DNA of 64,000 nucleotides from assembly GCF_015163075.1 (NCBI RefSeq), contig NZ_JADDXU010000002.1, positions 434,001 to 498,000 of the forward strand. Reading direction: 5' to 3'. The first letter of the stretch is position 1. Each line of letters opens with the position of its first letter. This stretch comes from Streptomyces justiciae (GTDB lineage: Bacteria; Actinomycetota; Actinomycetes; Streptomycetales; Streptomycetaceae). The position numbers were made by a program, and so were the translations under genes. Under the pieces are notes generated by a model. It saw only the letters and a program-made list of their open reading frames with translations. It searched no databases and had not been told where the DNA came from. Shown here piece by piece: positions 5,309 to 23,341 of the stretch.

Positions 5309-6472
5309 TCAGGCGGTGTGCAGGGTCAGGCCGTACCGGTTGAGGATCTCGTTGACCGGCTGGAACCAGGTCTCGCCGCCGCTGGAGCAGTTGCCCCAGC
5401 CGCCCGAGGTGACGCCCTGGGCCTGGTCGCCGCTGATGAACGAGCCGCCGGAGTCGCCCGGTTCGGCGCAGACACTGGTCTTGGTCATCTGATGCACCGC
5501 GCCCTGGCTGTAGTTGACGGTCTCGTTCATCGCGAGGACCGTGCCGCAGTGCCAGTGCGTGGTCGAACCGGACCGGCAGATGGAAGAACCCACCGGCGCC
5601 ACGTTGGAGCCGCGCACCAGTTGGTCGGAGACGGTGCCCCAGCCGAGCACGACCGGTACCGTCCACCAGCCGCTGCCCACGTTGACCCAGGCGTAGTCGT
5701 TGTCGGGGAACGACGAACCCTGGAAGTTGCCGATGTAGCTGCGGTCCCAGCCGTAGACGGCGCCGGTGTGCTGGTCGCAGTGTCCGGCGGTGATGAAGCC
5801 GCCGTACACCGAGAAGCCTATGGAGCAGCGGACGTTGCCGGTGTAGAAGGGGTCGCCGCCCACGGTTCCGGCGGCGAAGGTCTGCGGTGCGGTGGAGACG
5901 TGCCGGACGGTGACGGGGCCGGCGCGGTGGGCCCGCTCCACGAAGCGCCGGACATCGTTGTCGGCCTGCTCGCCGGCGACGACGTTGACGACGACCGTGC
6001 TCTCCTGCGGGTCGACATGCCAACTGGCGACGCCCGCCGGGGCGTTGAGCTTGTCCAGGCGGGCCTGGGTGGCGGCGAGTTCGCGGGCCGTGTGGGCGAC
6101 GGTGCGGACGTGGGCGCCGGTGGCCCGGACCGCTCGGACGGTCGCCTGCGGCGCGTCCGGGGTGAGGCCCACGGTCAGGGTGCCGGCGGTGGCGTCGTAC
6201 CAGGTGCCGCCGAGTGAACTACCGGCGGCCTTGCGGGCCTTGGGATCGGCGGCCGTGGCCCGCTGTTCGGCGGCGAGCCGCTGCTCGGCCTGGGCCTTGG
6301 TGAGGTGCAGGTCGCTCTGCATCGCGGTGAGGAGACCGGCGGAGGCGGGTGCCTTCGTCGGACGTGCGTCGCCGGAGGAGGAGGCGGAGGCGGGTGCGGT
6401 GCCCGCCGCGAAGCCGGCCCCGAGCGTAAGCAGGGCGGCCAGGGCGGCATGGGTGAGTCTGGTGCGTCTCAT
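5309..6472 (-). CDS. secreted S1-family serine protease, streptogrisin/alpha-lytic type
   Basis: A 387-aa preproenzyme. A signal peptide (ALAALLTLGAGFAAGTAPASA) is followed by a pro-region of about 160 residues resembling the alpha-lytic pro-domain, which folds and inhibits the enzyme, and a mature domain from about residue 200. The catalytic triad is visible: His in TAGHC (H231), Asp in DNDYAWV (D259) and Ser in EPGDSGGS (S341). Paired Cys residues near the His and Ser support disulfides in an extracellular enzyme. The gene is divergent from the large PKS gene. A CebR/LacI-like 16-bp palindrome lies 60 bases upstream, unusual for a protease. It has no extra C-terminal binding domain. Confidence 0.94.
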   Translation of the reverse strand: MRRTRLTHAALAALLTLGAGFAAGTAPASASSSGDARPTKAPASAGLLTAMQSDLHLTKAQAEQRLAAEQRATAADPKARKAAGSSLGGTWYDATAGTLTVGLTPDAPQATVRAVRATGAHVRTVAHTARELAATQARLDKLNAPAGVASWHVDPQESTVVVNVVAGEQADNDVRRFVERAHRAGPVTVRHVSTAPQTFAAGTVGGDPFYTGNVRCSIGFSVYGGFITAGHCDQHTGAVYGWDRSYIGNFQGSSFPDNDYAWVNVGSGWWTVPVVLGWGTVSDQLVRGSNVAPVGSSICRSGSTTHWHCGTVLAMNETVNYSQGAVHQMTKTSVCAEPGDSGGSFISGDQAQGVTSGGWGNCSSGGETWFQPVNEILNRYGLTLHTA

Positions 6473-6726: not shown

Positions 6727-9700
6727 ATGGGTGTGGCGGATGCGATCAGGGTTCGGCCGGTGCCGGAGCTCCTCGCGGAGAACGCCGTACGGTACGGCGA
6801 GAAGCTCGCGTTCGCCGACGACCGGCGCGAGGTGAGCTGGGCCGAACTCGACCGCAGGACCGCACGGTTGGCGACCGGACTCGCGGTCGGGCGCGGCACC
6901 CGGGTGGCGTTCTTCCTCGACAACGGCGTGGAGCTGGTCGAGGGTCTCCTGGCGACCGTGCGTGCGGCGGCAGTCGGGGTGCCGTTGCCGCCGCGTGCCA
7001 CGCACACCGAGCTGGCCCAGCTGTTGGCGGACTGCGACCCGGCCGTGGTGGTCACCGACCAGCGGCGGTTGCCTCGGATCGCCGGGATGGTCGCGGGGCG
7101 GCCGGTGCGGCTGGTGGTGATCGGCGAGGGACCCGTACCGGAGGGCGCGTCGCACTTCGAGGATCTGCTCTCGGGGCAGCGGGCCGAGCCCCGAGACGAC
7201 CTCGGTCCGGACGAACCCGCCTGGCTGCTCTACACGTCCGGCACCTCGGGCACCCCCACGGCGGCCGTGTCCAGTCAACGCTCCGCACTCTGGTCCTCGT
7301 TCGCGTGCTATCTGCCCCGGCTCGGACTGACCGCCACGGACCGGGTCCTCTGGCCCCTGCCGCTCGCCCACACCTACGCCCACTCGCTGTGCGTGCTGGG
7401 CACGACCGTGGCCGGGGCGAGCGCACGCATCACCTCGACCCCCGGCCCCTCCCAACTCACCCGGCTGATCGGCGAGTTCGAGCCGACCGTGCTCGGCGGG
7501 GTGCCGCTCACCTTCCGGCAGCTCCTCGACACCGGCCTCGGCGCGGTGCCCTCGCTTCGGGTGTGCGTCACCGCGGGCGCGCCGAGCGACCCGGAGCTGC
7601 GGGAGCAGGTGGAGCGGCGGTTCGGGGCGCCGCTCCTGGACGGGTACGGCTCCACCGAGACCTGCGGCAAGATCGCCATGGAGTCGCTCGACGGGCCACG
7701 GGTGCCGGGGAGCAGCGGAACGCCGGTGCCCGGCATGGACGTCCGCCTGGTCGACCCGGACAGCGGCTTGGACGTCGTGGGCGGCGAGGGCGAGATCTGG
7801 GTGCGCGGCCCCGGCGTCATGCTCGGCTACCACAACCGGCCCGAGGCGGACGCCGACGCCCTGCGCGAGGGCTGGTATCGCACCGGTGACCTGGGGCGGC
7901 TCGGGGCGGGCGGCAGTCTGACCGTCACCGGACGGCTCAACGACCGGATCGTGCGGGGCGGCGAGAACGTCGATCCGGCCGAGGTCGAGCGGGTGCTGCG
8001 CGGTCTGCCCGGGGTGCGGGACGCGGCCGTGGTGGCGCGGGCGCATCCGCTGCTGGGTGAGGTCCCGGTGGCGTTCGTGGTCCCGGCGGAGGAGTCCCTG
8101 GACCCCGCCGGTCTGCTGCGCGAGTGCGCCGCCGTGCTGTCGGCGCACAAGGTGCCCGAGGAGGTCCTGTTCACGCCGGCCGTCCCGCGCACGGCGGCGG
8201 GCAAGCCGCGGCGGGCGGTGCTGCGCGAGACGCTCGCCGAGCGGCCCCCGGCGCCGGACCTCGCGGGGCTGGCCGGTCTGACCGCCGGTGAACGGCGGTC
8301 CGCGCTCACGGAGTTGGTGTGCCGGGAGGCCGAGGCGATCCGGGGCACGGTCGCCGATCCCGGCACCGCGTTCGCCGATCTCGGGCTGACCTCGATGGAT
8401 GCCATGACCCTGTGGCACCGGCTCAGCCTGCGCACCGGACTGCGGCTGCCGGCGACCCTGGTCTGGGACCACCCGACCCCGGCCGCGGTCGCCGCCCACC
8501 TGGACACCCGGATGACCGGCGAGACAGCGGCGACGGTCCCGCCGCCGCGCGGCCCGGAGGCCGAGCCGGTGGCGATCGTGGCCGTCGGCTGCCGCTACCC
8601 GGGCGGGGTGAGCTCCCCGGAGGACCTGTGGCGGCTGGTCTCCGACGGTGTGGACGCCACGGGCGACTTCCCCACTGACCGCGGCTGGGACGTCGACGCC
8701 CTGCACGATCCCGACCCCGACCGGCTCGGCACGACGTACACCCGCCGCGGCGGCTTCCTCGATGGCGCGGCCGACTTCGACCCGCTCTTCTTCGGCATCT
8801 CGCCGCGCGAGGCCCTGGCGATGGACCCACAGCACCGCCTGCTGCTGGAGGTCGCATGGGAGACGCTGGAGCGCGCCGGCATCCCCGCGCCGTCGCTGCG
8901 CGGCAGCGCGACCGGCGTGTTCGTGGGCCTGATGCACGCCGGGTACGGCACCGGGCTCTCGCCGCACGAGCTGGAGTCGCACATCGGCATCGGCTCGTCG
9001 GGCAGTGTCGCCTCGGGGCGGATCTCGTACGTCCTCGGCCTGCGCGGTCCGGCCATGACCGTGGACACGGCGTGTTCGTCGTCGCTGGTCGCGATGGACC
9101 TGGCCGCCAAGGCGCTGCGGGCGGGTGAGTGCACGCTCGCGCTGGCCGGCGGGGTGACGGTGCTGTCGAGTCCGCAGCCGTTCATCGCGTTCAGCAGGCA
9201 GCGCGGGCTGTCGGCGGACGGCCGGTGCCGGTCGTTCGCGGCAGGCGCGGAGGGCACCGCGTGGGCCGAGGGTGTCGGCCTGGTGCTGCTGGAGAAGCTG
9301 TCGGACGCCCGGCGCAACGGCCACCCGGTGCTGGCGGTGCTGCGTGGGTCCGCGGTGAACTCCGACGGCGCGTCCAACGGCCTCACGGCCCCCAACGGCG
9401 AGGCCCAGCGCGACCTCATCCGCCTGGCGCTGGCCGACGCGGGCCTCGGCCCGGCCGACATCGACGTGGTCGAGGGCCACGGCACGGGCACGGCACTCGG
9501 CGACCCGATCGAGGCGGGCGCCCTCCTGGCCACCTACGGCCAGGACCGCGACCCGGCCGACCCCGTCTGGCTGGGCTCGGTCAAGTCCAACCTCGGACAC
9601 TCGCAGGCCGCCGCCGGAGTGGCCGGAGTGATCAAGATGATCGAGGCGATGCGCCACGGCGAACTCCCCCGCTCCCTGTACGCGGAAGAGCCGTCGCCGC

Positions 9701-12700
9701 ACGTGGACTGGACCGAGGGGGCGGTACGACTCCTCGACCGCCCGCGACCGTGGCCGCACCGCGACCGGCCGCGCCGGGCGGCCGTGTCGTCGTTCGGCAT
9801 CGGCGGCACCAACGCCCATCTCATCCTCGAAGAGCCACCGTCGCAGGCCGCGGTCGGCGTCGAGAACCGCCTTGTGGCCGCCGCCCCTTGGCTGGTCAGC
9901 GGCGGCGACGAGGCCGGACTGCGGGCGCACGCCGCGAAGTTGGCGGAGACGCTGGCGGACGTCACGGACGAGGACGCGCTGGACGTGGCGTTCTCGCTGG
10001 CGACCACGAGGACACCCCTCCCCCACCGAGCGGCTGTGCTGGGCGACAGCACCGCCGAACTCCTCGCGGGTCTGCGCCGATTGGCAGCGGGCGAGGACAG
10101 CCCCGGGCTGCTGAAAGGCACGGTGCGCGGCACCCCGAAGCTGGCGCTGCTGTGCGCAGGCCAGGGCACGCAGCGGGCCGGGATGGGGCGCGAACTGGCC
10201 GCCGCCTTCCCGGCGTTCGACGCCGCCTTCACCGAGGTGTGCGAGCTGTTCGACCCGCTGCTGGACCGGCCGCTGCGTGAGGTGATCGACGACCACGACG
10301 GCGATCTACTGGACCGCACGGACTACGCACAGCCCGCGCTGTTCGCCTTCGAGGTCGCCCTGCACAGGCTGCTCGCGGAGTGGGGTGTACGCCCTGACTA
10401 CCTGGTCGGCCACTCGATCGGCGAGCTGGCCGCCGCCCATCTCGCGGGCGTGTTCTCGCTGGCCGACGCGGTCCGGCTCGTGGCCGCGCGGGGCCGGCTG
10501 ATGGCGGCCCTGCCCGAGGGCGGCGCGATGGTCGCGGTGCGGGCGCCGGAGGCGGAGGTCGCGCGCAGGCTCGCCGAGACGCCCGGCCGGGTGGCGATCG
10601 CGGCCGTCAACGGGCCGACGTCGGTAGTGGTGTCCGGCGACGAGGCCGCGGTGACCGCGCTGGCCGCCTCGCTCGGCGGGCACAGCACCCGGCTCCGGGT
10701 GAGCCACGCCTTCCACTCTCCGCTGCTCGATCCGATGCTGGCCAAATTCCGTGCCGTCGCCGAGACCGTGACGTACCGGCGGCCGTCCGTGCCGGTGGTC
10801 TCCACGGTCACCGGCCGCCCCGAGCCGGACGCGCTCGCCACCGCCGACCACTGGGTACGGCAGGTGCGCGAGACCGTCCGGTTCGCCGACGCGGTGAGCT
10901 GGCTGGCGGAGGCGGGCGTGACGGCGTTCGTCGAAGCCGGTCCCGCCGCCGCCCTGAGTGTGGCGGCCGAGGGGTGCGTCGTACCGGAGTCGGGCTCGGT
11001 GTTCACGTCGTGCGCCGATGCGCAGGGAACGCTCGCGGCACTGGCCGCCCTCCAGGTGCACGGGGTGCCGGTCGACTGGCGGTCGGTGTACGCGGGCAGT
11101 GGTGCGCGGCGGCGCGCGTTGCCGACGTACCCGTTCCAGCGGCAGCGCTACTGGCTGCATGCGGTACGGCATCCGGTCGCGGCCGGCCATCCGGTGCTGG
11201 GCGAGGCTCAGCCGGACGCCGACGGGCCCGGCGTGCGGCACGCCGGGGTGCTGTCCGCCGTACGGCAGTCCTGGCTCGCCGACCATGTGATCGGCGGCCG
11301 GGTGCTGCTGCCTGCGGCGGCCTTCGCCGAGCTGGCGTGTCATGCGGCCGGGGCGTCCGGGCCCGTACGCCTGGCCGAACTGGCCTTCCGGGAGCCGTTG
11401 GTGCTGCCGGAGTCCGAGCCGGTGCGTGTGCAGGTCGTGACCGGCGGTCCGGACGAGGCGGGGAACCGGCCGGTCGCGGTCTGGGCGCGGGAGGGCGAGA
11501 CGTGGACGCGGCATGCGACGGCGACGATCGCCCCGGTCGGCGCGGCGCCCGTCGTACCGCTCCGGGTGTGGCCGCCCGCCGGTGCCGAGCGGCTCCCGGT
11601 CGACTACGACCGGCTCGCGGCTCACGGTCACGACTACGGACCGGCTTTCCGGGCGGTGACCGGTCTCTGGCGTCGGGGCACCTCCCTGTACGCCGAACTG
11701 GCCCTGCCGCCAAGGGAAGCGGCGACCGCGGGTTCCTACACCCTGCACCCCGCGCTGCTCGACGCGGCCCTGCACGCGGCACTCCTGGCCGACGGCCCCG
11801 GCGAGGCACGGGTCCCGCTCACCTGCGCCGGGCTCACGGTGTACGCCACCGGCGCCACCAGCGCCCGGGCCCACCTGGAACGGCTCGGCCCGGACGAGTT
11901 CCGGGTGACGCTCACCGACCCCACCGGGCAGCCGCTTGCCGCGGTCGAGTCGATGGTCACCCGGGTGCTGCCGCCCCAACGCCCGGTCGCACACGGCGAG
12001 TTGTACCGTCTGGCATGGCTTCCGGCGACGGCTTCCGGCAACGCCGACGCGCGCCATGAGGTGTTCGACGTGAAGAGGTCGGGCACGGACGCAGACACGC
12101 CTGCCCGCGTGCGGAGCCTGCTCGGCGGAACGCTCGCGCGGATTCAGGAGTGGGTCGCCGACGCGCGCCCGGGGCGGCTGCTGATCCTCACCCACAACGC
12201 GACCGGCGACGATCCCGACCCGGCCGAGGCGGCGGTGGCCGGGCTCGTGCGCAGTGCCCAGTCCGAGCATCCCGGCCGGATCGTGCTGGTCGACCGGCGC
12301 GGGGGCCCGGCGTCCCCGGCGGACCTGGAGGCGGCACTGCGGACCGGCGAACCGCAGGTCACCCTGCGCGACGGTGCCGTGCTCGTGCCCCGGCTGACCG
12401 CCGTGCCGTCCACCGTCGAGACCGAGGCGCCCGTTCTCGATCCCGACGGCACGGTGCTGATCACCGGCGGCACCGGGGCGCTCGGGGCGAGCCTCGCCCG
12501 GCACCTCGTCGACCGGCACGGGGTGCGTCAGCTGGTGTTGGCCGGGCGGAGCGGTCGTACGCCGGCGTGGGTCGCCGAACTCGGGGCGGCGGTACGGGTG
12601 ATGGCCTGCGATGTGAGCAACCAGGACGCTGTCGATACCCTGGTGGCGGCCTGTGGGCCGAAGTTGACCGCCGTGTTCCATCTCTCCGGTGTCGTGGACG

Positions 12701-14352
12701 ACGGTGTGGTGGACGGCCTGACGCCGGAGCGGCTCGCGGCCGTGCTCGCGCCGAAGGCGGACGGGGCCTGGCATCTGCACGAGGCCACCAAGGATCTCGG
12801 GCTGTCCGCGTTCGTGCTCTACTCCTCGGCGGCGGGCGTGCTGGGCCGCCCCGGACAGGCCAACTACGCGGCCGCCAACGGTTTCCTGGACGCGCTGGCC
12901 CGCCATCGCACCGCCCAGGGGCTGCCCGCGCAGTCGCTGGCCTGGGGACCCTGGACCACGGCCGACGACGAGGGCATGGCAGCCCAGGTCGCTCCGCACC
13001 GACTCACCGACGGGGGTGTCCTGTCCGTCGGCGAGGAGAAGAGCATCGGCCTGCTCGACCGGGCGTCGCGGACCTCGGAGCCGGTCCTCGTGCCGCTCGC
13101 GTTGGACCTGACGGCGCTCCGCGCGCAGACCGCGCCGCCGGTGCTCACGGATCTGCTGCCGCGCCGTCCGGCGGCCGCCCCCGCCACCACCGTTCCCGCG
13201 CAGGCGCCCGGTGCCTGGCGTGAGCGGCTCGCCGCCGCGCCGGTGGACGAACGCGAGGCAGTGCTCGTCGAGTTGATGCGCGCCGAACTGGCCCTGGTGC
13301 TGGGCTTCCCGGACGCCGCGTCCTTCCCCGTCGAGCGGGCCTTCACCGAACTCGGCTTCGACTCGCTGACGGCGGTGCAGTTCCGCAACCGGCTGAGCGC
13401 GTTCACGCGGGTTCGGTTGGCGCCGTCGATCGTGTTCGACCATCCGACGCTGCCCGCGCTGGCCGCGCATGTGCACGAAGCGCTGCGTCAGGTGTTGCCG
13501 GATGCCGGAGCGGAGGTCGCAGGGGACGAACCGGCCTCCTACCGTTTCGGCCCCCTGTACCACCAAGTCCTCCGCGAACGCGGCCCGTTGGAGGCCATGG
13601 GCCTGCGCTACCTCGCCTCCCACGCCCTCCCCTCCTTCTCCGCCGCCGACCGCGCCCGGCATGCCGTCCCGCCGGTCCGGCTGGCCCAGGGCGCGGGCAC
13701 GGCCCTGGCCTACGTCCCGGACTACCTCACGCCGTACCACCGCGTTCCCGCCGGGCTGGCCAAGCAGTTCGACGGCGAACGCGACCTGTTCCTGCTGGAG
13801 CACCCGGGATTCGGCACCCGCCGAGCCGTTCCGGAGGACGTGGACGCGGTCGTCAGGACGCATGTCGACACCGTGCGGACCTTGTCGGCGAACAGTCCGG
13901 TCGTCCTCGTCGGCTACTGCGCGGGCGGCGCGATCGCGCACGCCGTGGCGCGGGAGCTCGCGCGGGCCGGGGAGCCGCCGGCGGGGCTGATCCTGCTCGA
14001 CGGACACGCCGGTGTGCTGCGTCGGGACGACGAGCGGGCGTTGGCGCTGATGGCCGCCGGTGCCGAACTGCCGGACGACGTCGTGGTCGAGTTCGACGAC
14101 TCGCTGCTGATCGCGGGCGGAGGCTACGCACGGGTGCTGGAGAACTGGGAGCCGGAGCCCTCTCCCGTCCCGACCCTGCTGGTACGGGGCCGCCCGACCG
14201 CGCAGATGCTCCGCATCGCCCCCAAGGCCGACTGGCAGCCGCGCTGGCCGCTCCCCCACCAGGCCGTCGACGTCCCCGGCGACCACTACACCCTCGTCCA
14301 CCACGACGCCGACACCACGGCCGCGGCGATGCGCGCCTGGCTGCCGGCATGA
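6727..14352 (+). CDS. type I polyketide synthase: CoA ligase-ACP-KS-AT-DH-KR-ACP-TE
   Basis: A 2541-aa multienzyme. Order: acyl-adenylating ligase (1-530; YTSGTSGT at 169, YRTGDLG, TAAGKPRR), ACP1 (Ser556 in LTSMDAM), KS (Cys783 in DTACSSS, His918, His958), AT (GHSIGE around Ser1230 and HAFH at 1327-1330, the malonyl pattern), DH (His1520 in HVIGGRVLLP, Asp1679 in LLDAALH), KR (GGTGALG near 1914, Tyr2047, VDD motif), ACP2 (Ser2213 in FDSL) and TE. There is no ER. The TE has Cys2398 in GYCAGG where Ser is usual, with Asp2425 and His2520 intact. The ligase should load a free carboxylic acid onto ACP1 as in rifamycin- or rapamycin-type starters; whether the module iterates is not visible. The ATG at 6727 follows AGGAGG at 6717-6722; the frame is open to 6580. 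Halogenase and exporter follow in line. Confidence 0.95.
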   Translation: MGVADAIRVRPVPELLAENAVRYGEKLAFADDRREVSWAELDRRTARLATGLAVGRGTRVAFFLDNGVELVEGLLATVRAAAVGVPLPPRATHTELAQLLADCDPAVVVTDQRRLPRIAGMVAGRPVRLVVIGEGPVPEGASHFEDLLSGQRAEPRDDLGPDEPAWLLYTSGTSGTPTAAVSSQRSALWSSFACYLPRLGLTATDRVLWPLPLAHTYAHSLCVLGTTVAGASARITSTPGPSQLTRLIGEFEPTVLGGVPLTFRQLLDTGLGAVPSLRVCVTAGAPSDPELREQVERRFGAPLLDGYGSTETCGKIAMESLDGPRVPGSSGTPVPGMDVRLVDPDSGLDVVGGEGEIWVRGPGVMLGYHNRPEADADALREGWYRTGDLGRLGAGGSLTVTGRLNDRIVRGGENVDPAEVERVLRGLPGVRDAAVVARAHPLLGEVPVAFVVPAEESLDPAGLLRECAAVLSAHKVPEEVLFTPAVPRTAAGKPRRAVLRETLAERPPAPDLAGLAGLTAGERRSALTELVCREAEAIRGTVADPGTAFADLGLTSMDAMTLWHRLSLRTGLRLPATLVWDHPTPAAVAAHLDTRMTGETAATVPPPRGPEAEPVAIVAVGCRYPGGVSSPEDLWRLVSDGVDATGDFPTDRGWDVDALHDPDPDRLGTTYTRRGGFLDGAADFDPLFFGISPREALAMDPQHRLLLEVAWETLERAGIPAPSLRGSATGVFVGLMHAGYGTGLSPHELESHIGIGSSGSVASGRISYVLGLRGPAMTVDTACSSSLVAMDLAAKALRAGECTLALAGGVTVLSSPQPFIAFSRQRGLSADGRCRSFAAGAEGTAWAEGVGLVLLEKLSDARRNGHPVLAVLRGSAVNSDGASNGLTAPNGEAQRDLIRLALADAGLGPADIDVVEGHGTGTALGDPIEAGALLATYGQDRDPADPVWLGSVKSNLGHSQAAAGVAGVIKMIEAMRHGELPRSLYAEEPSPHVDWTEGAVRLLDRPRPWPHRDRPRRAAVSSFGIGGTNAHLILEEPPSQAAVGVENRLVAAAPWLVSGGDEAGLRAHAAKLAETLADVTDEDALDVAFSLATTRTPLPHRAAVLGDSTAELLAGLRRLAAGEDSPGLLKGTVRGTPKLALLCAGQGTQRAGMGRELAAAFPAFDAAFTEVCELFDPLLDRPLREVIDDHDGDLLDRTDYAQPALFAFEVALHRLLAEWGVRPDYLVGHSIGELAAAHLAGVFSLADAVRLVAARGRLMAALPEGGAMVAVRAPEAEVARRLAETPGRVAIAAVNGPTSVVVSGDEAAVTALAASLGGHSTRLRVSHAFHSPLLDPMLAKFRAVAETVTYRRPSVPVVSTVTGRPEPDALATADHWVRQVRETVRFADAVSWLAEAGVTAFVEAGPAAALSVAAEGCVVPESGSVFTSCADAQGTLAALAALQVHGVPVDWRSVYAGSGARRRALPTYPFQRQRYWLHAVRHPVAAGHPVLGEAQPDADGPGVRHAGVLSAVRQSWLADHVIGGRVLLPAAAFAELACHAAGASGPVRLAELAFREPLVLPESEPVRVQVVTGGPDEAGNRPVAVWAREGETWTRHATATIAPVGAAPVVPLRVWPPAGAERLPVDYDRLAAHGHDYGPAFRAVTGLWRRGTSLYAELALPPREAATAGSYTLHPALLDAALHAALLADGPGEARVPLTCAGLTVYATGATSARAHLERLGPDEFRVTLTDPTGQPLAAVESMVTRVLPPQRPVAHGELYRLAWLPATASGNADARHEVFDVKRSGTDADTPARVRSLLGGTLARIQEWVADARPGRLLILTHNATGDDPDPAEAAVAGLVRSAQSEHPGRIVLVDRRGGPASPADLEAALRTGEPQVTLRDGAVLVPRLTAVPSTVETEAPVLDPDGTVLITGGTGALGASLARHLVDRHGVRQLVLAGRSGRTPAWVAELGAAVRVMACDVSNQDAVDTLVAACGPKLTAVFHLSGVVDDGVVDGLTPERLAAVLAPKADGAWHLHEATKDLGLSAFVLYSSAAGVLGRPGQANYAAANGFLDALARHRTAQGLPAQSLAWGPWTTADDEGMAAQVAPHRLTDGGVLSVGEEKSIGLLDRASRTSEPVLVPLALDLTALRAQTAPPVLTDLLPRRPAAAPATTVPAQAPGAWRERLAAAPVDEREAVLVELMRAELALVLGFPDAASFPVERAFTELGFDSLTAVQFRNRLSAFTRVRLAPSIVFDHPTLPALAAHVHEALRQVLPDAGAEVAGDEPASYRFGPLYHQVLRERGPLEAMGLRYLASHALPSFSAADRARHAVPPVRLAQGAGTALAYVPDYLTPYHRVPAGLAKQFDGERDLFLLEHPGFGTRRAVPEDVDAVVRTHVDTVRTLSANSPVVLVGYCAGGAIAHAVARELARAGEPPAGLILLDGHAGVLRRDDERALALMAAGAELPDDVVVEFDDSLLIAGGGYARVLENWEPEPSPVPTLLVRGRPTAQMLRIAPKADWQPRWPLPHQAVDVPGDHYTLVHHDADTTAAAMRAWLPA

Positions 14353-14389
14353 GCGACCGAAACGACCACCAGACCGCAGGAGTTGACGC

Positions 14390-15847
14390 ATGACCCAGGA
14401 GTACGACCTGATCGTCGTCGGCGGCGGACCGGCCGGCTCGACGGCCGCGACCGCCGTGGCCCTGCGCGGGCACCGGGTCCTGCTGCTGGAACGCGAGACC
14501 TTCCCGCGCTACCAGATCGGCGAGTCGCTGCTGCCCGCGACCGTGCACGGCCTGTGCCGCATCCTCGGCGTCGCCGACGAGGTCCAGCAGGCCGGCTTCA
14601 CCCTCAAACGCGGGGGCACCCTGCGGTGGGGCCGTGATCCGGAGCCGTGGCAGTTCTCCTTCGCCATGACCCCGCGCGTCCCCGAACCCACCGCGACCGC
14701 CTTCCAGGTGGAGCGCTCACGCTTCGACGAGATCCTGCTGCGGGGCGCCCGGCGAGCCGGTGCCGAGGTGCGCGAGGGCAGCACGGTGCGGCGGGTCGTC
14801 GCCGACGAAGAGCGGGTGCGGGGCGTGGAGTTCAGCGACGCGGACGGCAACTCCCGTACGGCGTACGCCCGGTACGTCATCGACGCGTCCGGCAACACCA
14901 GCCGCATCCACACCGGCGTCGGCGGCGGGCGCGTCTACTCCGACTTCTTCCGCAACCTCGCCGTGTTCGGCTACTTCGCGGGCGGCGCCCGGCTTCCCGA
15001 GCCGAACAGCGGCAACATCTTCTGCGCCGCGTTCGACGCGGGCTGGCTCTGGTACATCCCGCTGCGCGACGACCTGACGAGCGTCGGCGCGGTGATCTCG
15101 CCCGAGCACATCGGCGCCGTGCAGCGGGACGCGCGGGGCGCCTGGCGGGACATGATCGAGGCGTGCCCGGAGGTGAGCCGCCTGGTGGCGGGCGTTCCGG
15201 AGGCGACCGAGGCGCCGTACGGCCAGGTGCGGGTGCGCCGGGACTGGTCGTACTGGAAGCAGTCCTTCTGGAAGCCGGGCATGGCGCTCGTCGGCGATGC
15301 CGCCTGCTTCGTGGACCCGGTGCTGTCCTCCGGAGTCCATCTGGCCACGTACGGCGCCCTGTTGGCGGCCCGCGCGGTGAACGCGGCGCTGGACGGCAGT
15401 GTGCCGGAGGAGCGGGGCTTCGCCGAGTTCGAGGCGCGCTACCGGCGCGAGTACCGCGTCTTCTACGAGTTCCTCATCGCCTTCTACGACATGGAGCGCA
15501 ACGAGGACTCGTACTTCTGGTCGGCGAAGAAGATCACCAACGTGGATCTCGGCGAGGCGGCGGCGTTCGCCGAGCTGGCGGGCGGGCTGGTCTCCCGTGA
15601 CTCCGCGGTGGTCCGCACGGACTGGCACACGGCGGCCACGCAACTGGACGGAGCGGTAGGCGAGTTGGCGACATCGGACGGGCGCATGAACCCCCTCCTC
15701 TCCGCTCCGGTCGTCGGCGAGACCTTCCGCACCGGCAACGACCTTCAGGAGCAGGCCCTGTACGGCGGTCCGCTCGACGACCCCGGCCCGGCGGCCCCGG
15801 ACGGGCTGGCCGTCACCCCGGACGGACTGTCCTGGATCAAGGTGTGA
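14390..15847 (+). CDS. flavin-dependent halogenase
   Basis: A 485-aa protein of the FADH2-dependent halogenase superfamily. The FAD-binding GGGPAGS (11-17) opens the protein; FPRYQIGESLLP is typical of halogenases rather than hydroxylases. A Lys at 73 (TLKRGG) sits where the chloramine-forming Lys is found in this family, and GWLWYIP (218-224) is the W-x-W-x-I/P motif that blocks oxygen insertion into substrate. GDAACFVDPVLSSG (302-315) closes the FAD site. The pattern looks closer to phenol- or carrier-bound-substrate halogenases (CmlS/CndH type) than to tryptophan halogenases. It starts 37 bases after the PKS stop behind GGAG, so it is probably co-transcribed and chlorinates or brominates the polyketide. 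A separate flavin reductase is not encoded nearby. Confidence 0.9.
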   Translation: MTQEYDLIVVGGGPAGSTAATAVALRGHRVLLLERETFPRYQIGESLLPATVHGLCRILGVADEVQQAGFTLKRGGTLRWGRDPEPWQFSFAMTPRVPEPTATAFQVERSRFDEILLRGARRAGAEVREGSTVRRVVADEERVRGVEFSDADGNSRTAYARYVIDASGNTSRIHTGVGGGRVYSDFFRNLAVFGYFAGGARLPEPNSGNIFCAAFDAGWLWYIPLRDDLTSVGAVISPEHIGAVQRDARGAWRDMIEACPEVSRLVAGVPEATEAPYGQVRVRRDWSYWKQSFWKPGMALVGDAACFVDPVLSSGVHLATYGALLAARAVNAALDGSVPEERGFAEFEARYRREYRVFYEFLIAFYDMERNEDSYFWSAKKITNVDLGEAAAFAELAGGLVSRDSAVVRTDWHTAATQLDGAVGELATSDGRMNPLLSAPVVGETFRTGNDLQEQALYGGPLDDPGPAAPDGLAVTPDGLSWIKV

Positions 15848-15922
15848 CCACGGCAACCTGTTGACCTTGCCCGAAGGGGAACCCGCAGCATCGGCGTACC
15901 GAGGGCTGCGGGAGGAGCGAGG

Positions 15923-17131
15923 GTGCGCGGGCTGCTGATCGACGTACGGCCGTTGCGGCGGGCCGAGTTCCGGCGGCTGTGGGCGAGCGGCATGGTGACC
16001 ACACTGGGCGCCCAACTGACCGCGGTCGCCGTGCCGATGCAGCTGTACGACCTCACCGGGTCCTCGGCGTACGTCGGGCTGGCCGGGTTCGTGGGGTTCG
16101 CGCCGATGGCGCTCGCGGCGCTGTGGGGCGGCACGCTGGCGGACGTACGGGACCGGCGGCGGGTGCTGCTGGCGACCACGGCCGGGATCGCTCTGACGTC
16201 GCTGCTGCTGTGGGCGCAGGCGTGGGCGCGGCTGGAGTCGGCGGGGGTGCTGCTGGCGCTGGTGGGGGTGCAGCAGGCGTTGTTCGGCGCCAACGCGGCG
16301 GTGAGCGGGGCGGTCGTCCCGCGCCTGGTGCCGCGTGAGCTGCTGCCCGCCGCGAACACGTTGCAGTCGCTGGTGTCCTGGTCGGCCGGGATCGCCGGCC
16401 CGCTGCTGGCCGGCGGGCTGCTGCCGGTCGTCGGGGCCGCGTCGCTGTATCTCGCGGACGCGGCGACGCTCGGCGTCACGCTGTGGGCCGTGTGGCGACT
16501 GCCGTCGCTCCCGCCCGTCGCCGAACAGGGCGCCGGAACACGGCAGTTCGCCGCGGGCTTCCGGCTGCTCGCCGCCCGGCAAGTGCTGCTGGTCGTCTAT
16601 CTCGCCGACTTCTCGGCGCTGCTCCTGGGCATGCCCGCCGCGCTGTTCCCGCAGTTGGCGAGGGAGACGTACCCGGGGGCGAACGTCGGGGTGCTGTACG
16701 CGGCGATCTCCGCCGGGGGCGTGCTCGCGGCCCTGTTCTCCGGTGGCTTCACCCGTGCGTCCCGGCACGGTGTCGCGGTCGCGGTGTCGGTGTGCGTGTG
16801 GGGGCTCGCGCTGGCAGCGTTCGGGCTGGCCGACTCGCTTGTGGTGGCGGCGGGTTGGCTGGTGGTGGCGGGCGGTGCGCTGCTGACGCTGGGTGTGTTC
16901 CGCAAGTCGGTCCTGCAGTCCGCGGTGCCGGACGGGATGCGGGGCCGCCTCCAGGGCGTCGACACCGTGATCGCCGCGGGAGGTCCACGGCTGGGCGACC
17001 TCGTGCACGGCCTGGCCGGCGCCTCTTTCGGGGCGACCTGGGCCGTCACCGGCGGCGGGCTGCTGACTGTGACGGCCGGGCTGGCGCTGCTGGTGTTCTT
17101 CCCCGCCTTCAGACAACACCGGGCCGCGTGA
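15923..17131 (+). CDS. MFS exporter, EntS-like
   Basis: A 402-aa protein with about 12 membrane helices. The opening LRRAEFRRLWASGMVTTLGAQLTAVAVPMQLYDLTGSS and the ADVRDRRRVLL loop after helix 2 are typical of the enterobactin-exporter (EntS) branch of the major facilitator superfamily, often found as self-resistance or export genes in biosynthetic clusters. The GTG start at 15923 is preceded by GGAGGAG (15911-15917). It is the third gene of the PKS-halogenase transcription unit (75-base gap) and ends 6 bases before the convergent YceI gene. Export of the PKS product is the natural inference. Confidence 0.88.
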   Translation: MRGLLIDVRPLRRAEFRRLWASGMVTTLGAQLTAVAVPMQLYDLTGSSAYVGLAGFVGFAPMALAALWGGTLADVRDRRRVLLATTAGIALTSLLLWAQAWARLESAGVLLALVGVQQALFGANAAVSGAVVPRLVPRELLPAANTLQSLVSWSAGIAGPLLAGGLLPVVGAASLYLADAATLGVTLWAVWRLPSLPPVAEQGAGTRQFAAGFRLLAARQVLLVVYLADFSALLLGMPAALFPQLARETYPGANVGVLYAAISAGGVLAALFSGGFTRASRHGVAVAVSVCVWGLALAAFGLADSLVVAAGWLVVAGGALLTLGVFRKSVLQSAVPDGMRGRLQGVDTVIAAGGPRLGDLVHGLAGASFGATWAVTGGGLLTVTAGLALLVFFPAFRQHRAA

Positions 17132-17137
17132 GGGGCG

Positions 17138-18049
17138 TTACTCCGGCGGGGTCGGTGTGTCGTGGGTGCGGTACATGGCCTGTACGTCCAACTCCAGCTG
17201 GACCGTGGGACCGACGACCGCGATGCCCCGGGCCAGCATGGAACGCCAGTTGAGGGTGTAGTCCTCGCGGTGCAGCTCCGCCTTCGCGAGGGCGGCGCAG
17301 CGCAGCTCCTCGCCGTAACCGCCGTTGACCATGCCCAGGTACGTCGTGTCCAGGGACACCGAGCGGCTCACGCCGTGCATGGTCAGCGTGCCGAGCAGGG
17401 ACCACTTGCTGCCGCCGCGGTAGGCGAAGCGGGTGCTGCGGAAGTCGATGTACGGGAAGTGCTCGACGTCGAGGAAGTCGGCCGAACGCAGGTGGTTGTC
17501 ACGGGTGTTGTTGCCGGTGGTGATGCTGGCGGCGTCGATCCGCACATGGACGCGGGAGTCGGCGACGTCCTGGGTGACCTGGATGCCGCCCTCGAAGCGT
17601 TCGAACCGGCCGTGCACATGGGCCATGCCGACGTGCTTGGCGATGAAGCGGATCGCGGTGTGCGGCGGGTCGAAGAGCCAGGTGCCGGGGACCGGGAGCT
17701 CGGCCTGCCGGGCGGGCTGGAGCCAGACGCGCTGCGAGGACAGACCGGCGTCGGCGGCGACCTCGACGGTCTCGCGGTGCGGTTCCAGGCCCTCCGCCAT
17801 GACCATGAGGCTGTAGCTGCCGGCCGGCAGCACGGCCAGGAACGTTCCGTACGGGTCCGTGGTGCCGCGCGCCACGACCTGGTGGCTGCGGAGTTCGGTC
17901 ACGGTCACGTCGGCGGCGCCCAGGGGCTGGTTCACCGGGTCGAGGACCTCGCGGACGAGGACACCGGCACCGGCCGGAACGGGAAGCGTGTGGCCCGCGG
18001 CGCCTCCGGAGGCACTCCTGAGTCGCCGCCGGAGCAGTCCGAGGGGCAT
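17138..18049 (-). CDS. YceI-family protein with N-terminal carboxypeptidase-regulatory-like domain
   Basis: A 303-aa two-domain protein. Residues of about 25-110 form a beta-sandwich of the CarboxypepD regulatory type (VLVREVLDPVNQPLGAADVTV ... GTFLAVLPAGSYSLMVMAEG). Residues of about 120-290 are a YceI lipocalin-like domain (GTWLFDPPHTAIRFIAKH, the S/T-x-I-x-F-x-x-x-H signature, then GGIQV, ADFLDVEHFPYIDFRST and a VSLD strand). YceI barrels bind isoprenoid or other apolar molecules. No signal peptide is evident. It follows the flavin monooxygenase by about 52 bases on the same strand, so the two probably form an operon. The ATG at 18049 is preferred over a GTG at 18058 because GAAAGG lies at the right distance. 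Confidence 0.87.
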   Translation of the reverse strand: MPLGLLRRRLRSASGGAAGHTLPVPAGAGVLVREVLDPVNQPLGAADVTVTELRSHQVVARGTTDPYGTFLAVLPAGSYSLMVMAEGLEPHRETVEVAADAGLSSQRVWLQPARQAELPVPGTWLFDPPHTAIRFIAKHVGMAHVHGRFERFEGGIQVTQDVADSRVHVRIDAASITTGNNTRDNHLRSADFLDVEHFPYIDFRSTRFAYRGGSKWSLLGTLTMHGVSRSVSLDTTYLGMVNGGYGEELRCAALAKAELHREDYTLNWRSMLARGIAVVGPTVQLELDVQAMYRTHDTPTPPE

Positions 18050-18101
18050 GGGTCTCACCTTTCAGTGGGGGGACAGTGGGTGCGTGGGGGGAGGAAGGGG
18101 G

Positions 18102-19871
18102 TCAGCGGTGATGCCCGAGGATCGTCCGCACCGCTTCGGTGAGCCTGCGCTCGGCGTCGTCCGCGGAGTCCGGTGCCGTCGCGTGCCGGAAGGCGACATA
18201 ACCGTCCGGCCGTACGAGGAGCGCGCCGGCGTCGGCCACCTCGCTCAGGCGGGCCCAGTCGCCGTACGGGTCCTCGTACTGCTGCCCCGGGCCGATGACC
18301 ACGGTGGCGATCTCCACGTCCTGATTCGCGGCAGCCTGCACCCAGGCGCCGCCGCCGATGCCCGTGACGAGCGTGAACCGGCCCTGTCCCACGGTGTCGA
18401 GGGTGGAGAGCGTCCGGGTGCCGGAGGTGAGCCAGGCGTGCGGAAGCTTGGCGCCGGGGCGGGACGTGGGCTGGTGGTGGAGCTCGGGGTCGCGGTCGAA
18501 GCCGGGGTCGGCGGTGCCGTCCGGGACGATCGCGGCGGAGGTGTAACGCTGATTGAGGTCGACGCCGTGCGCGTTGAACTCGTACGCCTTGAAGGCGATG
18601 GCCTCGCGCAGCCGCGCCCGCTGCTTCTCGGCCGCCTCGCCGGTCTCCTTGCGGGCGGCGATGTTGGCCCACAGCTGCTCGGGGGTCTGCGGGGAGAGTC
18701 CGTCGAGCGCCTCGAAGATCGGGGCGGTCTCGCCGATGGACTTGTTGGCGCGGGTGACGATCTGGCGGCCGATCGGGGCGCGTTCGGCGGTGTAGGTGTC
18801 GAGGAGCTTCGGGGAGGCGGTGCCGTCGAGGACGAGCTTGAGCTTCCAGGCCAGGTTGTAGGAGTCCTGGATCGAGGTGTTGGAGCCGAGGCCGTTGGAC
18901 GGCGGGTGGCGGTGCGTGGCGTCGCCGGCGCAGAAGACGCGGCCGTTGGAGTAGGTCTCGGCGTACATCTCGTTGACGGTCCAGGCCGAGGACGACTTGA
19001 TGGTCACCGGTATGTCGTCGTCTCCGACCAGCTTGCGGACGATCGACTCGGCGTACTCGGTCGTCAGGTCGGGGGCGCCGGCCGTGACGTCGTACCCCCA
19101 CACGATCAGCCACTCGTTCCAGGGCCGCACGCAGCGCACGAGGCCCGCGCCGATGCCGCCGACCGTGGCGCCGGGGGCGAGCACCCAGTAGAGGGTGGAG
19201 GGGCGGTGGGCGGTGTACTTGCTCAGGTCGGCGTCGAAGACGATGTTGATGCTGCCGGCCACGCCCATCTGGCCGCCCATCGGCAGCCCGGCGTCCTCGG
19301 CGACCTGGCTGCGGCCGCCGTCGGCGCCGATGAGGTACTTGGCGCGGATCGTGTACTCGTCACCGCGCAGCCGGTCCTCGACGGTGACCGTCACGCCGTC
19401 GTCGTCCTGGACGAAGGACTTGTAGACGGTGGAGAAGCGCAAGTGCGTGCCGCGCGCGACGGCCGCGTCCATGAGCACCGGCTCCATGAGGTGCTGGGGC
19501 ATGTCGCACATGCGGCTGGGGCTGGCGAGCTCGTGGGCGGCCTGCACGAGCGGGTCGTTGCCCCAGGAGCGGACCCGGCCCAGTTCCTCGCCGGCCAGGC
19601 TCGTGCAGAAGGTCGTATTGCCCATCAGGTGCTGCGGGGTCGCCTTCGCGACGACCTCGTCCTCCACACCGAGGTCGCGCAGCACCTCCATGGTGCGCTG
19701 GTTGGTGATGTGCGCCCTGGGCGTGTCGGCCAGGCTCGCGTAGCGGGTGACGACCATGTTGGGGACGCCGTAGGTGCTGAGGGCGAGCGCGGCGGAGGCT
19801 CCCGCGGGACCGCTGCCGACGATGAGTACGTCGGTCACGACATCGGGCTCGGCGGTGGGGACGCGGGTCAC
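18102..19871 (-). CDS. FAD-dependent aromatic monooxygenase, dichlorophenol-hydroxylase (TfdB)-like
   Basis: A 589-aa class A flavoprotein. Motifs: dinucleotide-binding GSGPAG near the N-terminus, the NAD(P)H/FAD motif YLIGADGGRS, and the GD segment CAGDATHRHPPSNGLGSN with IQDSYNLAWKL, followed by the C-terminal thioredoxin-like domain found in phenol hydroxylases. Overall length and motif wording resemble 2,4-dichlorophenol 6-monooxygenases, which hydroxylate chlorinated phenols next to the OH. The GTG at 19871 is chosen because GGAG precedes it at 8 bases; the frame is open to 19919. A transcription factor is divergent and an operator-like repeat lies between. It could degrade a phenol or tailor the halogenated polyketide. 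Confidence 0.88.
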   Translation of the reverse strand: MTRVPTAEPDVVTDVLIVGSGPAGASAALALSTYGVPNMVVTRYASLADTPRAHITNQRTMEVLRDLGVEDEVVAKATPQHLMGNTTFCTSLAGEELGRVRSWGNDPLVQAAHELASPSRMCDMPQHLMEPVLMDAAVARGTHLRFSTVYKSFVQDDDGVTVTVEDRLRGDEYTIRAKYLIGADGGRSQVAEDAGLPMGGQMGVAGSINIVFDADLSKYTAHRPSTLYWVLAPGATVGGIGAGLVRCVRPWNEWLIVWGYDVTAGAPDLTTEYAESIVRKLVGDDDIPVTIKSSSAWTVNEMYAETYSNGRVFCAGDATHRHPPSNGLGSNTSIQDSYNLAWKLKLVLDGTASPKLLDTYTAERAPIGRQIVTRANKSIGETAPIFEALDGLSPQTPEQLWANIAARKETGEAAEKQRARLREAIAFKAYEFNAHGVDLNQRYTSAAIVPDGTADPGFDRDPELHHQPTSRPGAKLPHAWLTSGTRTLSTLDTVGQGRFTLVTGIGGGAWVQAAANQDVEIATVVIGPGQQYEDPYGDWARLSEVADAGALLVRPDGYVAFRHATAPDSADDAERRLTEAVRTILGHHR

Positions 19872-19942
19872 GGGGGACGCTCCAGGGAATGAGAACAGGC
19901 ACCGGCTCTTCAAGATCATGAAGGGGGTCGCCGGGCCGTGGG

Positions 19943-19959
19943 TGTCTCAATACGAGACA
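19943..19959. promoter_or_regulatory. inverted repeat TGTCTC-N5-GAGACA, candidate activator site
   Basis: Two perfect 6-base arms separated by AATAC. The TGT-N11-ACA form is close to the upstream activator sites of NifA/AcoR-type regulators. It sits 72 bases upstream of the monooxygenase start and 70 bases upstream of the AcoR-type regulator, the most likely binder. Confidence 0.7.
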
Positions 19960-19961
19960 GA

Positions 19962-19999
19962 CGGGTAGTTGTTTTGCGTTCGGGTAGTTGTTTTGCGTT
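19962..19999. repeat. 19-bp perfect tandem duplication in a promoter region
   Basis: CGGGTAGTTGTTTTGCGTT occurs at 19962-19980 and again, without a gap, at 19981-19999. It lies immediately before the regulator gene at 20029 and next to the TGTCTC inverted repeat. The sequence is AT-rich against its surroundings and may duplicate a promoter element. Confidence 0.9.
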
Positions 20000-20028
20000 C
20001 AACCGTTCCCCGTAGGCTGAGCGGTGCC

Positions 20029-21810
20029 ATGACCACCGCAGAGCGCCCCACCGCCCTCACCTCGCTGCGCCGTGCCCGGGAGCTGTTCCTGCGCGGACAG
20101 CAACCGCCGGACGGAGTGCCGGACGACGTCCTCGCCGCGTGGAAGCGTGCCCGGTTCTTCGGCGTACGACACGACGTAGGTGACCCCGCGCCGGAGGCGG
20201 CGTCCGGGACCGCCGACTCCCCCTTGCTGGCCGCGGCCCGCCCGGTGCTCGACCGGATCGCCGGGACGCTCGGCGGCGGGGAGACCTCCCTCGTACTCAC
20301 CGACGCGCGGCTGCGGGTGCTGTGGGCGTCCGGGTTCGCGCCGGACCACCACTGCCGGGACCTCTCCGAGGAGCTGGTCGGCCACAACAGCGCCGCCCTC
20401 GCCCTGCACACGCACCGCCGCGCCGAGGTGCACGGGCCCGAGCACTTCCTCGACCGCTGGCAGGACGTCTCGGCGGTGAGCGTGCCGGTGCGGGCGCCGG
20501 AGACGGGGGACACCGTGGGGACGGTGACCGTGGCTACCGGGTTGTACGGCGGGCGAGGGGAAGGACCAGGATACGGACCGCATCCCGGTGCTCCGCTGGC
20601 CGAGGCCGTGGCGACGGCCGTCGAGACCGAGCTTCTCTCTCGGTCGCGGGCGGCCGAACGGGCGCTGCTGGACGCGTACTTGCGGGCCTCGGGGAAGAAG
20701 GGCCAGGCGGTCGTCGCGTTGGACGGCCGCAACCGGCTCGTGAGCGAGGCGGCGGGGCGGATGTTGTCGCCGGAGGGGCTGGAGGCGCTGGAGCGGAGGG
20801 CGGTCGCGCTGATACGGGAGTCCGGGTCCGGGCGTCCGACAGCGCTCGCGGACGGCCCAGACGGGTCCGCGCAGCCGGACAGCCCAGACGGGTCCGCGCA
20901 GCCGACAATGCTCCCCGACGGCCCAGGCGGCACCGTCTCCCTCACCCCCGTCTCCCACCAGGGTTCCGTCATCGGCGCGGTCGCGATGCTGGAGTCGTCG
21001 GGGTGCCCGGCGCCGGTCACAGCCGACAGACGCGACCTCGGTCTGGCCGGGCGTTCCGTGCCGTGGCGGCACGCGGTCGGGCGGGCCCTGGAAATGGCCA
21101 CGTCCAGCGAGCCGCTGCTGCTGGTCGGCGAACGCGGCACCGGGAAGACCTCACTCGCCCGCGAACTGGCCGCCGACGCCCTGCTCATGGACGCGGCCGA
21201 GACCGAACTCGGCACCCACGCTGACGTGTTGCGCACCGGCCGCCCCCTCCTGGTCCGCCACGTCGAGCGACTCGCCCCGCCCGACACGGCGACCCTCAAC
21301 TCCCTCCTCGCGGCTCACCCGAACGTCCCGCTCCTCGCCACGTACACCCCCGGAGCCCCTCCGGGCCCCTGCCTCCAGCGCCTCCTGGACACCCTCGCGG
21401 CCCGCTCGGTCACGCTGCCCGCCCTCCGTGAACGCCCCGAGGACATCCGGGAGTTGCTCACCTCCCTGACCCCGCGCCCCGAGCCCGGACGTCCTCCGCT
21501 CACCTGGTCCCTCGATGCGCTGCGTGCCCTGGAGCGGCACCCCTGGCCCGGCAACGTCACCGAACTCGCCCACCTGGTCCGGACGTTGGCCGAACACCGC
21601 CGCACGACCGGCCCCGTCCGCCGTACCGAACTCCCGGACGCCGTACGCGAAGGCCCGGCGCCCCGCCCGCTGACCCCGATGGAACTCGCCGAACGGTCCG
21701 CCATCCTGGACGCCCTCCACCTCCACGGCGGCAACAAGGCCCGAGCGGCGGCGTCCCTGGGCATCGCCCGCGCGACGCTCTACCGGAAACTGCGGGGCTA
21801 CCGGGTTTGA
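20029..21810 (+). CDS. GAF-AAA-Fis regulator, AcoR-like, lacking the sigma-54 loop
   Basis: A 593-aa regulator. The N-terminal 220 residues carry a GAF-type sensor region (LAAARPVLDRIAGTLGGGETSLVLTDARL, then WASG and SEELVGHNS as in AcoR/DhaR proteins). An AAA-type domain has an intact Walker A (GERGTGKT, about 367-374) but is shortened and has no GAFTGA loop. The C-terminus is a Fis helix-turn-helix (GGNKARAAASLGIARATLYRKLRGY). Streptomyces lack sigma-54, so it must act with a different polymerase. The ATG at 20029 replaces an upstream start that would overlap the tandem repeats. A 27-bp in-frame duplication lies at about residues 276-293. It is divergent from the monooxygenase. Confidence 0.9.
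   Translation: MTTAERPTALTSLRRARELFLRGQQPPDGVPDDVLAAWKRARFFGVRHDVGDPAPEAASGTADSPLLAAARPVLDRIAGTLGGGETSLVLTDARLRVLWASGFAPDHHCRDLSEELVGHNSAALALHTHRRAEVHGPEHFLDRWQDVSAVSVPVRAPETGDTVGTVTVATGLYGGRGEGPGYGPHPGAPLAEAVATAVETELLSRSRAAERALLDAYLRASGKKGQAVVALDGRNRLVSEAAGRMLSPEGLEALERRAVALIRESGSGRPTALADGPDGSAQPDSPDGSAQPTMLPDGPGGTVSLTPVSHQGSVIGAVAMLESSGCPAPVTADRRDLGLAGRSVPWRHAVGRALEMATSSEPLLLVGERGTGKTSLARELAADALLMDAAETELGTHADVLRTGRPLLVRHVERLAPPDTATLNSLLAAHPNVPLLATYTPGAPPGPCLQRLLDTLAARSVTLPALRERPEDIRELLTSLTPRPEPGRPPLTWSLDALRALERHPWPGNVTELAHLVRTLAEHRRTTGPVRRTELPDAVREGPAPRPLTPMELAERSAILDALHLHGGNKARAAASLGIARATLYRKLRGYRV
20855..20904 (+). repeat. in-frame 27-bp period tandem duplication
   Basis: A 23-bp block is repeated exactly at 20855-20877 and 20882-20904, so the period is 27 bp or nine codons. 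It encodes PDGSAQP twice in the linker between the sensor region and the AAA domain of the regulator. The linker is probably disordered, so the insertion is likely to be tolerated. Confidence 0.9.
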
Positions 21811-23228: not shown

Positions 23229-23341
23229 CCTCACCTCGCTCGCGGGACGGCCGGGATCGTCGCGTCAGCGTGCACCGAAGACGGGATCACCGCAAGGCGG
23301 CGTGCGTCCGGGCACGGCAGCTCACAGGGCAGGGAGAGCCG

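Follow-up and report, generated by a model that had tools for sequence, protein, structure and literature searches.

A window of 64,000 nucleotides, the whole stretch analysed, from the 10.45 Mb genome of a soil Streptomyces (G000:C12:434001-498000) contains a gene for a type I polyketide synthase (PKS) directly followed by a gene for a flavin-dependent halogenase. Gene models at 6727-21810 were typed with Pfam and NCBIfam, and 14 open reading frames (ORFs) were scanned around 712-26542. The gene inventory of an earlier note on this DNA was confirmed: PKS, halogenase and exporter are collinear on the plus strand, followed by genes for a YceI-domain protein, a flavin-dependent monooxygenase (FMO) and a regulator. 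We consider it likely that these genes form two neighbouring units unrelated in function, of which unit 1 (6727-15847, or up to 17131 if the optional exporter is counted) makes a chloro-hydroxyaryl acid and unit 2 (17138-21810) is catabolic.

Domains and motifs of the PKS-halogenase pair

The features of unit 1 are as follows (A, adenylation; ACP, acyl carrier; KS, ketosynthase; AT, acyltransferase; DH, dehydratase; KR, ketoreductase; TE, thioesterase).

6727..14352, plus strand: one-module type I PKS, A-ACP-KS-AT-DH-KR-ACP-TE (Pfam)
6775..8205, plus strand: A-type loading domain, aryl/acyl-AMP ligase-type (PF00501 and PF13193)
8563..9678, plus strand: KS, DTACSSS intact (Pfam, motif)
10150..10968, plus strand: AT, HAFH motif (Pfam, motif)
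11188..11979, plus strand: DH, HxxxGxxxxP and DAALH present in the window copy (Pfam, motif)
12448..12957, plus strand: KR, VDD and catalytic Tyr motifs (Pfam, motif)
13276..13473, plus strand: second ACP (Pfam)
13756..14325, plus strand: TE, Cys in the nucleophile motif GYCAGG (Pfam, motif)
14390..15847, plus strand: CndH-type flavin-dependent halogenase (Pfam/NCBIfam, CndH alignment)
15923..17131, plus strand: MFS exporter, accessory (Pfam/NCBIfam, synteny)

The PKS start at 6727 matches the N-terminus of the orthologue in Streptomyces sp. MP131-18 (L014). The catalytic motifs of the window PKS are intact, and it has both an A-ACP loading part and a complete extension module, as in an aryl-primed modular PKS. 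The closest solved KS relatives are DEBS modules, and the HAFH motif of the AT points to a malonyl-type domain. The PKS motifs were aligned in 44 rows, 5 of them duplicates; two PKSs shorter than 2300 residues (L027 and L031) were read separately. In this alignment the KS, AT and carrier motifs were conserved, the Gly of the DH motif was substituted in many relatives with the DH His retained, and one Asp of the KR motif varied. Every one of the 25 readable Streptomyces orthologues (window counted; L021 is cut) has the TE Cys, as do 4 of the 5 aligned non-Streptomyces orthologues and 1 of the 8 divergent ones. The nearest solved TE, FluC, likewise has GYC at the aligned motif. Since cysteine TEs are already known, such as that of ObiF (PMC6668435), this Cys is treated as a feature and not as evidence for a new reaction.

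Both separately read PKSs have peculiarities. The Pseudosporangium PKS (L027:2462-9977) matched end to end in three segments, with breaks near 5503-5554 and 7284-7287 and no N run, and these may reflect decay or sequencing error. The record labelled Rhodococcus rhodnii (L031) carries the pair at Streptomyces-like identity (halogenase 76%) with a PKS lacking a TE match; the G+C content of the pair is 0.69 against 0.64-0.65 in the flank, which suggests horizontal transfer or a mislabelled contig.

The halogenase is identical to CndH (3e1t) in 226 of 407 aligned columns (55%, 3 gap columns), and among the PDB matches CndH scored 502 bits and the next halogenase 248. Its LKRGG (IKRGG in CndH) and W-x-W-x-I-P (WLWYIPL) stretches align with those of CndH, as in CndH-type (variant B) enzymes; the Lys of the LKRGG stretch is catalytic. 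The earlier note had described a flavin halogenase with phenol-type motifs. The enzyme class holds, while the F-x-x-P-x-x-S-x-G motif occurs in flavin halogenases generally and does not single out phenols, so that a phenolic substrate is now argued from the similarity to CndH. The enzyme is also 52% identical to a halogenase, presumably SgcC3, from the S. globisporus C-1027 plasmid, where its gene has sgcD, sgcG and a gene for an enediyne chromoprotein as neighbours. According to a review, the substrates of CndH and SgcC3 are probably tyrosine analogues tethered to a carrier (PMC8407142). By analogy with these relatives, and from its PKS partner, the window halogenase would act on a carrier-tethered substrate.

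Other halogenases were also observed. The genome of the window encodes a second flavin halogenase (G000:C28:29078-30193), 36% identical to the first. Near halogenases of 55-57% identity (L097-L100, L134, L135) there are nonribosomal peptide synthetase genes that belong to a single family; P450 and Na/H-exchanger genes accompany several of them, the exchangers resembling the antiporter beside the C-1027 halogenase.

Conservation of the pair and its starter acid

Related loci (n = 29) were obtained by a halogenase scan of a species-genome collection in which only close relatives were retrieved; because every PKS-halogenase locus was reached by way of the halogenase, a PKS copy lacking one would escape the search. 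Each locus was viewed to about 2 kb past the PKS and 10 kb past the halogenase, less in L012, L020 and L031. L001-L006 are fragments of the window's own genome, and its nearest relative among the halogenase-found loci is that of S. antibioticus (L007).

The PKS gene adjoined the halogenase gene in 28 of the 29 loci, the exception (L012) being a 5.5 kb contig that begins inside the halogenase; two of the 28 PKS genes were damaged or short, with frame breaks (L027) or no TE match (L031). The same pair was present in 4 further orthologous loci and in 8 of 9 divergent loci (halogenase 62-67%), the ninth contig ending there. In three Lentzea loci PKS and halogenase are divergent yet adjacent. Pairwise identities of PKS and halogenase were strongly correlated over 39 loci (Mantel r 0.98, 0/2000 permutations as high), excluding L027, L031 and the duplicates L116, L118, L119, L122 and L124 (of L015, L018, L017, L025 and L033). 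PKS and halogenase are thus one conserved unit that has diverged together. In a genus sample of 295 Streptomyces genomes, own included, the halogenase was present at 79% identity or more in 10 (own included) and at 63-67% in 9 more; carriers were defined by at least 62% identity, which excludes genomes whose best halogenase is 51-59% identical.

The other neighbours of the pair vary. An exporter homologue lay within about 1.1 kb downstream in 6/29 loci, and the exporter is a clade-specific, optional accessory of unit 1; its best NCBIfam model, EntS, scored 180 bits, under the cut-off of 324. Orthologous YceI was found in 3/29 loci (L007, L008, L012).

Outside Streptomyces, a chorismatase gene (FkbO/Hyg5-like; Pfam run on two copies) was located downstream of the halogenase gene in 6 of 7 loci, from Nucisporomicrobium, Actinoplanes, Pseudosporangium and three Lentzea, with the R. 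rhodnii-labelled record as the exception. It was the next gene in five loci and about 1.4 kb off in L028. The Lentzea copy in L035 scored 363 bits with 5ag3, which we take to be Hyg5, versus 276 with FkbO, and retains a Cys present in 5ag3 and absent from FkbO. Hyg5-type chorismatases form 3-hydroxybenzoate, and by analogy the neighbouring gene suggests a 3-hydroxybenzoate starter in these chorismatase-linked loci.

At positions of the A domain that, by analogy with related ligases, presumably line the acyl pocket, the motif was DGYGSTETCGKIA in all 26 Streptomyces orthologues (window included), DCYGSTETCGMIA in all 6 chorismatase-linked loci, DGYGSTETCGMIA in the R. rhodnii record and DAYGSTETCGMIA in 8/8 divergent loci. 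Chorismatase was not found at E 1e-12 in the window's own genome, nor in any of the 18 further genomes that carry a halogenase at 62% identity or more, and it was rejected as the starter source in Streptomyces. An Rv2949c-like chorismate lyase occurred in 3 of the 295 genomes and in none of the 18 halogenase genomes, and was rejected likewise. Because these Streptomyces genomes lack the chorismatase and the Streptomyces orthologues have another A-domain motif, the Streptomyces starter probably differs from that of the chorismatase-linked loci. Among the PDB matches of the A domain, fatty-acyl, malonyl and feruloyl ligases were mixed on top, with coumarate and benzoate ligases lower.

The hydroxylase unit

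Unit 2 contains the following features.

17138..18058, minus strand: YceI-domain protein (PF04264, synteny)
18102..19919, minus strand: HbpA/TfdB-like FAD aromatic-ring hydroxylase, the FMO (Pfam/NCBIfam, PDB comparison, synteny)
19943..19959, no strand: operator-like palindrome TGTCTC-AATAC-GAGACA (FMO-regulator gap)
about 20029..21810, plus strand: AAA/Fis-HTH regulator, divergent (Pfam/NCBIfam, synteny)

The FMO had been described as dichlorophenol-hydroxylase-like; it is indeed an FMO, and among PDB entries it is nearer to HbpA (2-hydroxybiphenyl 3-monooxygenase, 647 bits) than to 2,4-dichlorophenol 6-monooxygenase (553 bits). The regulator was likewise recognised, without the GAF domain attributed to it: Pfam gave none at E up to 0.1, and only HTH_8 and AAA_lid_14 passed the cut-offs. 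Beyond unit 2, a CHAT-domain protein is encoded at 23270-26542, with two reading frames upstream of it (from 21878) that have no Pfam match.

The FMO was present at 81% identity or more in 44/295 genomes, own included. In the 14 FMO regions compared, chosen among the high-identity ones of the 43 other FMO genomes, regulator and YceI were present and the PKS-halogenase pair was absent in every case. Genes for an intradiol dioxygenase and an iron-containing alcohol dehydrogenase (Fe-ADH), Pfam-typed on one copy each, were located between FMO and YceI in 13 of the 14; we take them to perform hydroxyquinol cleavage and maleylacetate reduction. Unit 2 of the window has neither gene locally, and homologues (78% and 77%) are encoded side by side on contig C15 of its genome.

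All 16 FMO-regulator gaps compared contain the palindrome TGTCTC-N5-GAGACA, 14 of them without mismatch and 2 with a single one; in L115 a second exact copy lies just upstream of YceI. Even when 2 mismatches are allowed, the window has no other site; since shuffled sequence yields about 2 such sites by chance, the weight of the palindrome comes from conservation and position. Genome-wide this is the only exact copy, and six more sites differ from the pattern at one position (4 for a reversed control pattern). No palindrome was found near the window PKS at up to 2 mismatches, and the 46 other PKS-halogenase loci held one site at up to 1 mismatch (L032, inside the halogenase). The conserved palindrome would be bound by the regulator. 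By analogy, unit 2 resembles ordinary regulated aromatic catabolism of the hydroxyquinol type.

Proposed pathway, alternatives and known systems

For unit 1 the domain order, the motifs and the co-inheritance of the pair are observed, and we infer the starter, the timing of chlorination, the number of rounds and the product as follows. The A domain would adenylate an aromatic, probably hydroxylated, acid and load it on the first ACP, after which KS and AT would append malonate and KR and DH would give an alpha,beta-unsaturated aryl acid in one or a few rounds. The CndH-type halogenase would chlorinate the ring while it is carrier-bound, and the Cys-type TE would free the acid. This would yield a chloro-hydroxyaryl acrylic or short polyenoic acid, probably a hitherto undescribed chlorinated aromatic acid. 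Unit 2 would correspond to the hydroxylase portion, with its regulation, of a catabolic system of the hydroxyquinol type. The chlorinated-polyketide pathway of the earlier note is therefore kept for the pair, a conserved unit that fits such a product, and given up for the share of the FMO and regulator; unit 1 alone is a plausible source of a chlorinated aromatic polyketide.

Several points weigh against this interpretation. The cassette has no known product, and the table of the review cited for CndH puts that enzyme under 'aliphatic substrates' (PMC8407142). The window's genome lacks both the chorismatase and a PF01947 chorismate lyase, other starter sources not having been searched, and hence no phenolic starter source was recognised there; the different Streptomyces starter also weakens 'phenolic' for the window itself. 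Genus-wide, the FMO was found in 13/18 halogenase genomes versus 30/276 others (p 1e-8), and the two loci are 38-95 kb apart in G228, G254 and G079. This co-occurrence, with the adjacency of the units in the window and in S. antibioticus, favours a single pathway in which the FMO would act as a hydroxylase on the chlorinated PKS product, with that product as the signal for the regulator. In an rpoB tree of 89 genomes (G001, with partial rpoB, dropped; 41 of the 246 genomes without halogenase or FMO included, in list order), all placed halogenase and FMO carriers fell in one 54-tip clade (node support 0.94). Within it the excess was weak: the FMO was present in 13/18 halogenase genomes vs 29/35 sampled others (p 0.48), or 29/65 after scaling for the sampled fraction (p 0.06); we read the co-occurrence as mostly a clade effect with a possible weak residual association. 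In the 7 other genomes that combine the FMO with a halogenase at 79% identity or more, the two loci are on separate contigs (3 genomes) or separated by about 0.65-8.5 Mb (4 genomes). The spacing in G067, G140, G049, G207 and G124 is about 0.6-8.5 Mb, G049 having a further FMO copy at a distance of 0.84 Mb. The orthologous FMO with its regulator lies beside the pair in just 1/29 related loci (L007), the FMO keeps company with dioxygenase and Fe-ADH, and the palindrome is confined to its own gap in the window. Shared synteny of both operons, set beforehand as a test, failed: relatives keep each operon separately. On synteny, palindrome search and rpoB tree we rejected a single pathway as the leading explanation, although the weak residual association persists. 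We regard it as highly improbable that FMO, YceI and regulator are later steps or controls of the pair, and a separate catabolic unit, the alternative in the earlier note, is the better reading of the second operon.

Two other explanations concern the PKS itself. It could be the lagunapyrone synthase proposed for Streptomyces sp. MP131-18, iterative and feeding a type III PKS, which we consider quite unlikely. The PKS of that strain (L014:873-11461) is 77% identical to the window PKS, divergent to a type III PKS and directly followed by a halogenase. SBA_00390 and SBA_00389 (iPKS and divergent type III PKS) are the proposed lagunapyrone cluster 3 of the strain, in which lagunapyrones were detected and the cluster was assigned via genome inspection (PMC5301196). 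With 7,054 genes on 7.86 Mb, gene 390 is expected near 0.43 Mb, and the locus is at 0.415-0.437 Mb; from arrangement and map position, its PKS is almost certainly the published 'putative lagunapyrone iPKS' SBA_00390. However, a relative of the type III PKS was found in 1 of 47 fetched PKS-halogenase loci (42 distinct genomes; mostly viewed to about 2 kb upstream and up to 10 kb downstream), in L014 alone, and it was rejected as a pathway partner; none was among the 14 window ORFs scanned. The halogenase accompanies the PKS wherever the contig allows, though the loci were halogenase-found. The available text presents lagunapyrones as alpha-pyrones with methyl branches and names no halogen, and the main text leaves the adjacent halogenase unmentioned, its three 'halogenase' mentions referring to the lyn cluster (PMC5301196). 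The assignment was repeated in a review (PMC8471533), and a Lentzea survey gives 'lagunapyrone' for L. aerocolonigenes NBRC 13195, the strain of L035 (PMC9120177). Since an Actinomadura paper puts the label, at 22%, on a region typed as type III PKS (PMC12837462), it does not always mean a window-type PKS. Among the open-access papers searched, 'lagunapyrone' occurred together with 'halogenase' only in PMC5301196, which is no proof of absence. The other explanation, an iterative PKS that builds a salicylate- or resorcylate-type ring de novo from a fatty-acid starter, with the halogenase chlorinating that ring, is unlikely. It agrees with the best PDB match of the A domain, the fatty-acyl ligase FadD13 (208 bits), and with the neighbourhood of the pair in the Streptomyces loci fetched, where we recognised no gene for an aromatic starter. 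Against it stand the chorismatase neighbours outside Streptomyces and the KS-to-KR part, closest to modular DEBS (1113 bits), with which iteration is still compatible.

If a chloro-hydroxyaryl acid is indeed the product of unit 1, a very small PKS-halogenase pathway type would be defined in actinomycetes. Its product class could be tested directly, and its A domains would offer a natural series in which sequence changes go with the choice of starter. We tentatively put forward, as a serious possibility, that such pathways of two genes, leading to short aryl polyenes or chlorinated hydroxyaryl acrylates, are widespread and unrecognised, that the loading motif (C/M vs G/K) tracks the neighbouring chorismatase and marks a starter change in Streptomyces, and that the 'lagunapyrone' label is misassigned. 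Our comparison suggests that the published gene-to-compound assignment, repeated in a review and a genome survey, needs re-checking.

Compared with known systems, both units show likenesses and differences. Resorcinol/hydroxyquinol catabolic operons are known, for example in Corynebacterium, and share FAD hydroxylase, intradiol dioxygenase and Fe-ADH with 13/14 relatives of unit 2; because the window has the hydroxylase alone of the three at the locus and the others on contig C15, unit 2 is likened to these operons and not classed with them. Lagunapyrone cluster 3 of MP131-18 almost certainly has an orthologous PKS, while its assignment involves an adjacent type III PKS (PMC5301196) of which the other fetched loci show no relative. 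The C-1027 halogenase is similar in identity and differs in its enediyne setting. CndH of Chondromyces crocatus, alike in sequence and in both motif stretches, serves the chondrochloren pathway, whereas the window enzyme is partnered with one self-loading PKS module. The 3,5-dihydroxybenzoate route genes that mark a venemycin-type cluster (type III PKS, aldehyde dehydrogenase) were absent from the 14 scanned ORFs around the PKS, to which the search for them was confined. The venemycin (vem) cluster of Streptomyces venezuelae, described as a hydroxybenzoate-primed small type I PKS system with flavin halogenases and a monochlorinated pathway product, resembles unit 1 in its A-domain-loaded small type I PKS, TE and flavin halogenase (PMC5132015).

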